Positions 54,017 to 58,026 of a stretch of 64,000 bases of DNA are shown one piece after another. Position 1 is the first letter of the stretch, and every line of letters begins with the position of its first letter. Position numbers and translations under genes: made by a program. The stretch spans positions 124,001 through 188,000 of the forward strand of contig JAJVIO010000008.1 of NCBI GenBank assembly GCA_022071975.1, written 5' to 3'. The stretch comes from Planctomycetota bacterium (GTDB taxonomy: Bacteria > Planctomycetota > UBA8742 > UBA2392). The notes under the pieces were generated by a model that worked only from the letters and a program-made list of their open reading frames with translations, did no database searches and was not told where the DNA came from.

Positions 54017-55900
54017 TCAGCCCGGCTCGCCTTCCTTGTCAGGCTCTTCCTTTTGTTCCGGCTTGGGCTTGTATTCGTCCACGATTGGGCCGTAGCGGCG
54101 CATCAGGTCTTTGTACACGTCCGTGCGCAGGCCGTGGTTTTTCATCAGCCAGAGGGTGTGGATCAGCTCATCGTTGTCCTGGTCGGCCATCGCAAAGGTC
54201 AGACGCGCCATCAGCTTCATCTCGTACAGATTGTCGCCGGGCTTTGCCTCCCGCACCGTTTCGCGCAGCACGCGCTGCTGCACGTTGATCACGTCTTTCA
54301 CCAGCCGGTCCCACTGCCAGGTGCGGCTGTTGGATTGCAGACCGTTGACCACGGCCTGGCTCAGGAACAGGCGTTCGAGCTCGGATTCGTTGCTGGGCAG
54401 CCAGGTGTAGGCGTGGCTGCCGGAGCGCACATAGAACTCGTAGACGTAAGCGAACTCCTGGGGGTCGATGTCCTGGGCCGCCGCCAGCGCGTCCACGGAG
54501 ATGGCCCAGGCGTCCAGCGCTTCGTCGGTGCGACGCTGCTTGTGAAGGCGCTCGGCCTCGTAGGTGGCGCACAGCCCGAGACTCAGCTGCAGCTCGTGCT
54601 CCAGCGGCGCGACCTCGATCCCTTTGCGGTACCACTCGATGCCCTTGGTGTAGTCGCCGCTGCCGTAGTACAGGTTGCCGAGCACCAGCTCGATGCGGCC
54701 GTCCTTCACCTTGGGCAGCGCCGTCTCGATCAGCCACTCGGCCTGCTTCATGCGGTCGTCGATGTTCCAGGCCGAGAGCCACCAGCCGAACAGCTCGACG
54801 TTGGCGGGCTGCACCTTCATGGCCTGCTTGATTTCGTTCTGCGCGAACTCGAAGCGGTTGAAGTGCGTGGCCGCGTACCAGGCCAGCCGCCCGCGCAGCA
54901 GCACGTCGTCAGGGTGGAGCGCAATGGCCTCGCGCCCGAGCTTCAGGGCTTCGTGGCGGTAACGCTCGTTCTCGGCCTCGTCTGTCTGGGTTTCCGCCAG
55001 CGCCCGGTAGATCTCCATGCCGAACAGCGCCGCGCGGCCGCAGGCTGGGTCGGCTTTCATCACGTCTTCGTACGAGATCAAGGCCTCGGCCAGGCGCCCG
55101 TTGTTGAGCGCGTCGCGCATCTTGACGTAGTCGCGCAGCAGCTTGTCCTGGCACACCAGGCGCGGAACCTGGGCGTGGGGTATCTCAACGGGCTTGCCGT
55201 CTTCACCCACGCCAGCGCCGATGCCCGCGCATAACCCTGACACCTTTTCTTCCAGCAGCTTCAAAGTGCTGTCGGGCTCGGGTTTGCCGAGTTTGCCGAA
55301 TTCCCACTCAAGGGACTGCTCGACGCCCGTTCCGCGGGCGTAACGCACAGCGAGCGCACGCGCAGGCGCGTCGCCCTTGCCCGGCTGATAGTTCAGCGCG
55401 AACACGAGGTCGGCGTTGAAGGTGCGGGCCGCAGCCTCCAGGCTGCTCGACTTCTGGCCGGGTTTGACCTCGGCACCGACGCGCGGGGCGTCGCCTTTAC
55501 GCAACATGGCGGCATAGCGGATGGTGCGCGCCAGGTTTGGCTCACGGTGCAGTTGCGGTCTGTAGTCGATGGCCTGCTCCAGCATCAGCTCAAGGCCGCC
55601 GGCGATGGCGCGGCCGCTGCCGGACAGGTCTTCGTTGGGCGTATCGTGGGGGCTGTCGGCGTTGGGTACGTGCAGGATCACAACCTTGAAGTGGCGGGCG
55701 GGCACGACACCGGTGAAGGTGGTTTCAGGCAGCGGTGTGAAGAGCTGGTCGGGCCCGCTCGGTTTGAGTTCGTCCTGTTTCGGCGGCAGCTTCGGCGCAT
55801 CCTGGGCCCGTGCTGCCGACACCAGCAGCGCGCCGGCACCGCCAAGGAACAGCGTGGTGAAGAACAGGTATGCAACCAGGGTGCGCGTGACTCGCCGCAT
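54017..55900 (-). CDS. secreted TPR-containing hypothetical protein
   Basis: 627 aa with N-terminal signal/TM and TPR-like helices. Confidence 0.75.
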   Translation of the reverse strand: MRRVTRTLVAYLFFTTLFLGGAGALLVSAARAQDAPKLPPKQDELKPSGPDQLFTPLPETTFTGVVPARHFKVVILHVPNADSPHDTPNEDLSGSGRAIAGGLELMLEQAIDYRPQLHREPNLARTIRYAAMLRKGDAPRVGAEVKPGQKSSSLEAAARTFNADLVFALNYQPGKGDAPARALAVRYARGTGVEQSLEWEFGKLGKPEPDSTLKLLEEKVSGLCAGIGAGVGEDGKPVEIPHAQVPRLVCQDKLLRDYVKMRDALNNGRLAEALISYEDVMKADPACGRAALFGMEIYRALAETQTDEAENERYRHEALKLGREAIALHPDDVLLRGRLAWYAATHFNRFEFAQNEIKQAMKVQPANVELFGWWLSAWNIDDRMKQAEWLIETALPKVKDGRIELVLGNLYYGSGDYTKGIEWYRKGIEVAPLEHELQLSLGLCATYEAERLHKQRRTDEALDAWAISVDALAAAQDIDPQEFAYVYEFYVRSGSHAYTWLPSNESELERLFLSQAVVNGLQSNSRTWQWDRLVKDVINVQQRVLRETVREAKPGDNLYEMKLMARLTFAMADQDNDELIHTLWLMKNHGLRTDVYKDLMRRYGPIVDEYKPKPEQKEEPDKEGEPG

Positions 55901-56023: not shown

Positions 56024-57544
56024 TTACACCCGCGCGCGACGCAACCGCACGGCAACGCCCAGCAGCGCCAACAGGCCCAGCAATGCCGGCCAACCGCCGT
56101 TGCCGCCCGCCGCGCAACCGCCGCCGCCGCCGTTGTCGCTGCTGCTCGAACTTCCGGTGCTGCCACTGCTGACGGAGATCACGGCCGAGTCCACAATGAT
56201 GCCGGAGCCTGCCAGGCTGAAGCGCAGGATCACCCCGCCGTTGGAGCCGGAAAGCGCGAGGTCATCGAACACGGCCGCGCCGTAGGTGCTGACGCGGTAG
56301 GTGGTGCCCAGCAGCGTGCCGGTGCCTGACAGGATCTGTACCTGGATACCGCCATCGTCGCTAGTGACCAGCGCGTTGCCCGCATCACGCAACTCGATCT
56401 CGAAACGGAAGCTGGCGCCGTTGGCCACGGCAATGGGCGCATCCGTGATCGCCAGCGAAGCGACGCTGGCCGGCGCGCCCAGCGCCTGGAACAGGCACAG
56501 CGCCGACTGCTGCACGGTGAAGTTGGAGTCAGTTGTGTACATCAGGCTGCACAGCCGGGTGGCGTCGCCGCTGAAAGGCCGGAAGTCGCCGGTCTCGAAG
56601 GCCAGCGCCGCGGGACCGTTGTTCAGCCCGGAGCCCGCCGGGGCCGCCTGGGCGAACACGGTGAAAGCCCCGGTGGCGAGATCGGAGCGCAGGATCGAGC
56701 CATCGTTGGCGGTGAAGTACAGGATGTCCTTGCCGTTCTCGTGGTGGAACGCAGCGCGCCCGCCGTTGGGGAAGTTGGCCGATCCGTCGATCAGCATCAC
56801 GCCGTCGGCTACGGTCAACGTGGCGGCGGCGGCGATGGCTGCGTCCAGTTGCGCCTTGGCGAAGCGCACCACGCGCATCGGTGTGCTGCTGCCGAACGTG
56901 GGCGGCAGCAGGCAGTACATGTTGCCGCTGCTGTCGAAGGCCACAGGGCCGGAGCTGTTGGCCCCCGCGGGCGTCAGCAGGTCAACCACCTGGGTGACGG
57001 CCAGCGTGGCCTGGTCCACCAGCCACACGCCGCAGTTGGTGCCGATGTTCGAGCCGGAAACAAAGAGGCGCGAATACGGGTCGAACTCGAGGTCATAGGG
57101 ATAGACCCCCAGCGATGAGCCAGCCAGTACGCCGTTGTTGCCGAAGCTGGTGTCGAGTGTGTCCAGCCCCGCGCGCCGCAGCTTGTAGAGCATGGGTGTG
57201 CCGCTCTCGATGAAGAACAGGTCGGTCGTCACGTAGGCGTCAAATTCAAGGTCATCCACGTACGGCAGGAAGCCCGGGTTGGGCACCACGTACAGCGGCG
57301 TAGCCGGCGTATTGGTGGTCGTGTCGAAGCGGCGGATCGAGGTGCTGCCGAGGTCGTAGTAGTACAGGTCCGTGCCGGCGGGGTCGAAGGCGACGCCGCC
57401 CGGCACGCCGAACATCGGCGGGCTGGACGGGGTGATGTCGTGTTCGCTGTGCGCGAATCCGCCGGCCGTGCCGGTGTAGTAGGTTCCCTGCGCGCAAAGC
57501 GCGGGCGCGACGGCCAGGGCCGCCAGTAGAAGCAGATACTTCAT
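56024..57544 (-). CDS. secreted beta-propeller-like protein with Gly-rich Cys/TM/Arg C-terminal sorting tail
   Basis: Signal peptide MKYLLLLAALAVAPALCAQ; repeated YDLEFDPYSRLFVSGS / GPVAFDSSGNMYCLLP-type blades; tail GGGGGCAAGGNGGWPALLGLLALLGVAVRLRRARV. Confidence 0.75.
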   Translation of the reverse strand: MKYLLLLAALAVAPALCAQGTYYTGTAGGFAHSEHDITPSSPPMFGVPGGVAFDPAGTDLYYYDLGSTSIRRFDTTTNTPATPLYVVPNPGFLPYVDDLEFDAYVTTDLFFIESGTPMLYKLRRAGLDTLDTSFGNNGVLAGSSLGVYPYDLEFDPYSRLFVSGSNIGTNCGVWLVDQATLAVTQVVDLLTPAGANSSGPVAFDSSGNMYCLLPPTFGSSTPMRVVRFAKAQLDAAIAAAATLTVADGVMLIDGSANFPNGGRAAFHHENGKDILYFTANDGSILRSDLATGAFTVFAQAAPAGSGLNNGPAALAFETGDFRPFSGDATRLCSLMYTTDSNFTVQQSALCLFQALGAPASVASLAITDAPIAVANGASFRFEIELRDAGNALVTSDDGGIQVQILSGTGTLLGTTYRVSTYGAAVFDDLALSGSNGGVILRFSLAGSGIIVDSAVISVSSGSTGSSSSSDNGGGGGCAAGGNGGWPALLGLLALLGVAVRLRRARV

Positions 57545-57644
57545 GGAAAACTCCAACTCGCCCACATGGCGCTGTGGCGCGCATCCGTGGCGGACCCTCG
57601 CCGCACCGGACCATGGCCGCCGGGCAAAACAGGCGGTCATGCAG

Positions 57645-57840
57645 CGTCGCGACAGGTCTTCTGACTCCCAGGCGGTGCACAGGCATTCGGCCTGTGGGTC
57701 TCTCTACTCCCGCGCCTTCTCGCCCTTTCGGCAATGGCTGATGCGGTTTCGTTCCTGGTCACAGCGGCGGGGCCGTCCCGGATTCTCACCGGGTTCCCGG
57801 GTGAACGTATGGCCGTTCACCCTGTGTCGTGACGGGGGCA
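57645..57840 (-). promoter_or_regulatory. cobalamin (B12) riboswitch
   Basis: Minus strand: GGGAACCCGGTGAGAATCCGGGACGGCCCCGCCGCTGTGACC ... CCACAGGCCGAATGCCTGTG ... GGAGTCAGAAGACCTGTC (B12 box). Confidence 0.92.
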
Positions 57841-58026
57841 GTATGCGAGGGCAATGCAAAATTCAAAATGCAAAATTCAAAATGCTTGAGGCAGCGCCTG
57901 GGTCGCCGCATTCCGTGCGGGAATGCAACCGCGAACCACCGCCAAGGGCCGCGAAGATTCAACTCTTTGCGGCTCTCAGCGGTTGGCAGGTAGTTCGAAA
58001 CCTGTAACTACCGCGATGACGGCGTA

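Follow-up and report, generated by a model that had tools for sequence, protein, structure and literature searches.

An exported beta-propeller encoded behind a cobalamin riboswitch is a probable B12-capture protein in Planctomycetota

The closest described counterpart of the locus reported here is BtuG, a seven-bladed surface lipoprotein that has been reported as exclusive to Bacteroidetes (PMC6143338, PMC10404256). Riboswitch-regulated, secreted B12 capture outside the core BtuBFCD system is also represented by BtuJ (DUF4465), BtuH, and BtuK (PMC12751083, PMC13398666, PMC8941943). Our locus comes from a Planctomycetota MAG that is 88.7% complete, so that single gene absences are soft. It shares with BtuG an exported beta-propeller, a cobalamin riboswitch, linkage to B12 transport genes (in relatives), and a setting in B12-salvaging bacteria. 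We propose that the protein works like BtuG, on the basis of its regulation and export, its fold class, and its linkage to transport operons. The locus would be a B12-acquisition unit, and its exported, B12-repressed propeller would capture cobamides by analogy with BtuG, a reading to which we assign a probability of roughly 0.72. The propeller probably arose independently as a B12-capture protein, a counterpart of BtuG in gut Bacteroides.

In the window (the whole 64,000-nucleotide stretch of DNA that was analyzed, from contig JAJVIO010000008.1), the minus strand carries, in order, the riboswitch, a 90-nt leader, the gene for a 506-amino-acid secreted protein, and the gene for a TPR protein:

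57634 to 57846, minus strand: cobalamin riboswitch aptamer (RF00174), found by cmscan and also recovered in the search of its own genome
57560 to 57625, minus strand: conserved structured RNA element of ~66 nt in the interval from aptamer to Shine-Dalgarno sequence, based on covariation and family conservation
56024 to 57544, minus strand: secreted beta-propeller protein of 506 amino acids with a signal peptide, a predicted six-blade propeller, one Ig-like domain, and a tail, based on a 15-homolog alignment, AlphaFold2, and Foldseek
54017 to 55900, minus strand: TPR protein of 627 amino acids with an N-terminal membrane helix, an alpha/beta domain, and a TPR solenoid, based on Pfam TPR matches and AlphaFold2

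The initial annotation had read a B12 riboswitch on the minus strand upstream of a gene outside the known cobalamin families and had suggested the Rfam cobalamin model as a check. That search placed RF00174 at 57846 to 57634 on the same strand with 82.9 bits (E = 6.6e-19), well over the gathering cutoff of 31.5 bits and across the full-length model (positions 1 to 189). The interval from aptamer to start codon is 90 nt, measured to a revised start. The open reading frame originally chosen (57640 to 56024) begins at an upstream ATG, and we place the coding sequence at 57544 to 56024 because homologs align from 57544 (MKYLLLL..., with GGAG shortly upstream). Genome-wide, the search gave only two RF00174 matches, namely, that of the propeller and a weaker one (31.7 bits) preceding a btuF-btuD-btuC operon. 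The second riboswitch heads the same operon in relatives, with the names BtuF and BtuC taken from NCBIfam on relative G002.

The ~66-nt element between aptamer and gene is common to all 15 family leaders, and two-sided changes occur in 6 of its 14 pairs (covariation, 0.273 versus 0.185 shuffled; 0/500). A model of the element (R1) matched the leaders of propeller genes only (E < 1e-8; 86 sources compared) and was negative at the distant propeller loci described below. The element matched no Rfam family, and single-sequence folding energies of the leaders showed nothing unusual. A 5S rRNA-like identity was considered and was without Rfam support. The element is probably the expression platform, and control of the propeller gene by the riboswitch would be of the OFF type.

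The 15-homolog alignment defines a family architecture of signal peptide, propeller, one or more Ig-like domains, and a tail consisting of a Gly/Ser-rich C-[AST]-[AT]-G motif, a hydrophobic/transmembrane stretch, and Arg residues. The signal peptide and the Gly-rich Cys-TM-Arg tail that had been recognized initially are both present and conserved in this alignment. Searches with the window protein recovered no family in Pfam (none at E <= 1) or NCBIfam, and a single-sequence PDB search gave one weak propeller match only. The propeller fold proposed at the outset was borne out by the AlphaFold2 model, by Foldseek, and by a profile of distant members searched against PDB. In our own DSSP reading of the model (m1324a9bec053; five sequences; pLDDT 81.6, pTM 0.76), the strand order would fit six four-stranded blades, with the N-terminal strand closing the last and the Ig domain following. 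Foldseek against PDB ranked sialidases, six-bladed SMP-30, luciferin-regenerating enzyme, and Pizza6 structures highly, with DFPase and strictosidine synthase also among the structural neighbors, and the compact matches were mostly six-bladed. By sequence, the distant-member profile matched Pizza6/NHL and DFPase propellers in PDB. BtuG was absent among the matches listed (best 50 and best 60).

Only two motifs, SGP..FD..G and ES[SG], are common to near and far members, and they may be structural. The window protein did not match the NCBIfam C-terminal signal models (MYXO-CTERM / GlyGly-CTERM). The Gly/Ser-rich Cys-TM-Arg tail (56024 to 56160, minus strand, in the window) occurs in many further proteins of every genome in the family, with no NCBIfam sorting-signal match.

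The planctomycete propeller falls outside the BtuG family on four counts: sequence family, number of blades, lipobox, and partnership with BtuB. Searches for PF16819/DUF5074 gave no match in the window's genome or in the family members covered and weak ones in only 4 of 151 planctomycete genomes, and the model points to six blades versus seven in BtuG2 (PMC10404256). There is no lipobox (the signal peptide ends in PALCAQG, with Leu before the Cys, and Cys17 of the window protein is Ser or Gly in the four closest homologs, Ser being the residue in most close ones) and no adjacent BtuB, and the anchors of the planctomycete propellers are tails or dockerins. BtuJ is a jelly roll, whereas the AlphaFold2 model of the window protein is a propeller; with no DUF4465 match in Pfam, identity with DUF4465/BtuJ was set aside. 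SMP-30/gluconolactonase/LRE (PF08450) and NHL proteins belong to the same six-bladed fold class, but their Pfam matches are weak and subthreshold, and location and gene context differ. Our literature search, which left most subscription journals outside, found nothing pairing a cobalamin riboswitch or BtuG with planctomycetes and counts as weak evidence of novelty.

A survey of homologs for upstream riboswitches, also suggested initially, was positive throughout the family. A propeller homolog is present in 15 of 16 genomes of the GTDB family, and each of the 15 (the window protein and 14 others) has a riboswitch 89 to 339 nt upstream of its start; because all of them keep it, the pairing is not due to chance. 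The one exception, G006 (94% complete), is without the propeller, and its riboswitch is only the weak one of the btu operon. A close-subset contig scan detected relatives in the Planctomycetota MAGs HKST-UBA87, HKST-UBA88, PLA1, and SJ201, and a scan of viral contigs detected none.

Beyond the family, a propeller-only profile searched against 300 Planctomycetota genomes found 21 further genomes, and a profile of 19 distant proteins searched against 399 genomes found ~50 strong proteins in nine more families. Homology between the near and far groups extends across the entire propeller (hhalign, 99.7%; E = 1.2e-25; 292 columns). Strong distant members were defined by a score of at least 150, which gave 49 open reading frames; two at contig ends (L097 and L103, on contigs ending just upstream) were left uncounted, leaving 47 testable. 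A cobalamin riboswitch lies upstream on the same strand in 45 of these 47, including two (L163 and L165) under the Rfam gathering score that were seen only in a relaxed search. Forty of the distant riboswitches are within ~400 nt of the gene (usually 30 to 400 nt), with the rest in apparent operons or tandem copies. L169 and L173, which are second copies or paralogs, have no riboswitch, and the other copy in each genome has one. Membership was not assigned to matches under ~120 bits; among them, L174, L175, and L178 show a riboswitch and L171, L172, L176, and L177 do not. L108 in G184 was dropped as seemingly spurious (no riboswitch, dockerin-like, and missed by the second profile).

RF00174 gave just 38 matches in 26 genomes (~125 Mb), and chance adjacency is therefore negligible. 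Of the 20 propeller genomes searched, 14 gave no RF00174 match besides the one that precedes the propeller. If the capture reading is true, propellers would have evolved to capture B12 on more than one occasion, since this one is unrelated to BtuG, six-bladed, and under riboswitch control in ~10 planctomycete families.

A single riboswitch heads four genes in each of three genomes (G154, G194, and G329); in order, they encode a FecCD permease (PF01032), an ABC ATPase, a Peripla_BP_2 protein (PF01497), and the propeller. In these genomes the propeller shares both regulon and operon with the BtuFCD ABC importer. These calls come from Pfam for the G154 permease and binding protein and the G194 binding protein, and from the translation (Walker A) for the ATPase in both; the G329 operon was assigned because its riboswitch spacing is the same and the genome is closely related. 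BtuG-like linkage to btu genes was found only in these three relatives, in addition to the riboswitch control that the window also has. In the window's genome, in contrast, BtuFCD has its own riboswitch and locus, and the propeller is not adjacent to btu genes. Second riboswitches in other propeller genomes head btuF/btuC-like genes (L186, L189, and L191) or a second secreted family (L185, L188, and L190).

None of the 20 genomes of the class that were searched yielded CbiC, which marks de novo cobamide synthesis, and B12-binding domains were detected in 21 of 21 genomes searched, with seven in the window's genome. From these two observations, we conclude that the host is a B12 user and that salvage is its most likely source. 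The propeller is a candidate receptor for a vitamin that these planctomycete lineages apparently cannot make. The conserved riboswitch, secretion, btuCDF linkage in relatives, and a B12-using host in which the synthesis marker was not found all support the earlier suggestion of a BtuG-like capture protein unrelated to BtuG, with B12 binding as the predicted part.

We infer ligand binding, cellular location, and hand-over from genomic context and the predicted fold. At low intracellular cobalamin, the empty aptamer would let the downstream RNA element permit expression of the propeller and probably of the TPR gene; at abundant cobalamin, the bound riboswitch would turn this expression off. The exported protein, held by its C-terminal tail in the window's family, would capture cobamides in the periplasm or outside the cell and pass them toward BtuF and the ABC importer BtuCD. 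The TPR gene directly follows the propeller in 14 of 14 family relatives and in none of the distant loci. Its AlphaFold2 model (pLDDT 77.9) resembled TPR proteins and the CadC periplasmic domain in Foldseek.

Other genes are also linked to cobalamin riboswitches in planctomycete genomes. A second secreted family, distantly like Leptospira LIC_13355 lipoproteins, lies repeatedly behind a cobalamin riboswitch or beside the propeller:

L159, 4354 to 5457, plus strand: LIC_13355-like protein
L188, 141 to 1160, minus strand: LIC_13355-like protein
L190, 4290 to 5312, minus strand: LIC_13355-like protein
L111, 2703 to 3728, minus strand: LIC_13355-like protein
L174, 4187 to 5083, plus strand: LIC_13355-like protein

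Three members scanned matched no Pfam family, and one member searched had no PDB match; the family is possibly another B12-capture protein. Genes with prepilin-type N-methylation signals were observed downstream of cobalamin riboswitches in L174 (5083 to 5880, plus strand), L178, L180, and L181, suggesting that pilus-like fibers are part of the B12 regulon.

The alternative that survives best is that the propeller is part of the regulon for B12 uptake without binding cobamide, as a scaffold or assembly partner of another binder such as the LIC_13355-like family or the pilus-like fibers. Proteins of that family do occur beside the propeller or behind a riboswitch of their own (L111, L159, L174, L188, and L190), pilin-type N_methyl genes are present in related loci (L174; also read in L178, L180, and L181), and Bacteroides BtuL, from a riboswitch-regulated B12 operon, bound no cobalamin (PMC12751083). 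Most propeller genomes tested, however, have a single riboswitch, which serves the propeller, and the window's genome has no riboswitch-led secreted gene besides the propeller and btuF; we regard a nonbinding role as unlikely.

Still less probable is that the propeller is not the primary receptor and serves in cobamide remodeling or release, pulling cobamides from a bound form (binding proteins, organic matter, or vesicles), as BtuG2 does when it takes B12 from intrinsic factor (PMC6143338). An acidic character, as would suit a cationic ligand, is seen in most propeller members, but L101 and L104 are basic. The B12-responsive replacement that the initial annotation had offered as an alternative, here an extracytoplasmic SMP-30/strictosidine-synthase-type enzyme substituting for a B12-dependent step, is the least credible reading of all: riboswitches do control B12-independent isozymes such as MetE, and SMP-30, DFPase, and strictosidine synthase are structural neighbors, but the propeller is exported whereas B12-replaceable enzymes are cytosolic, SGL gave no match above the cutoff in one member scanned in detail and weak ones in the near family, the alignments show no conserved acidic/Asn cluster common to near and far members, and relatives carry the gene in a btuCDF operon.

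Returning to capture by a BtuG-like propeller, we considered the outer-membrane step. One TonB plug domain was found in the window's genome, on another contig; the protein that carries it is most similar to heme receptors, with a match below the cutoff, and none lies near the propeller locus. Plug domains were not found in propeller genomes G011, G014, G015 (window's family), G038, G191, G203, and G358, and none was seen directly after a riboswitch in propeller genomes with both positions known. In G043 (one contig, L184, without the propeller), cobalamin riboswitches lie directly upstream of TonB receptors, which suggests two alternative B12 regulons in the phylum; the other propeller-free genomes (G021, G026, G031, G032, and G042) gave no clean contrast. 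Because few propeller-free genomes were examined and the others are unclear, the contrast between propeller and riboswitch-led TonB receptor is a lead rather than a result. Since propeller genomes spend their riboswitch on the propeller and some are without a detectable plug domain, we tentatively raise the idea, which we consider somewhat doubtful, that in many Planctomycetota the propeller takes over the outer step of B12 uptake from the TonB-dependent receptor BtuB, with a TonB-independent crossing of the outer membrane that depends on it.

Two further riboswitch-led secreted proteins (L181, 2119 to 3543, minus strand, and L182, 161 to 1840, minus strand) show weak matches to BamB/PQQ or YncE-like propellers and were missed by the window-family profiles; B12 regulons may have acquired propellers repeatedly.
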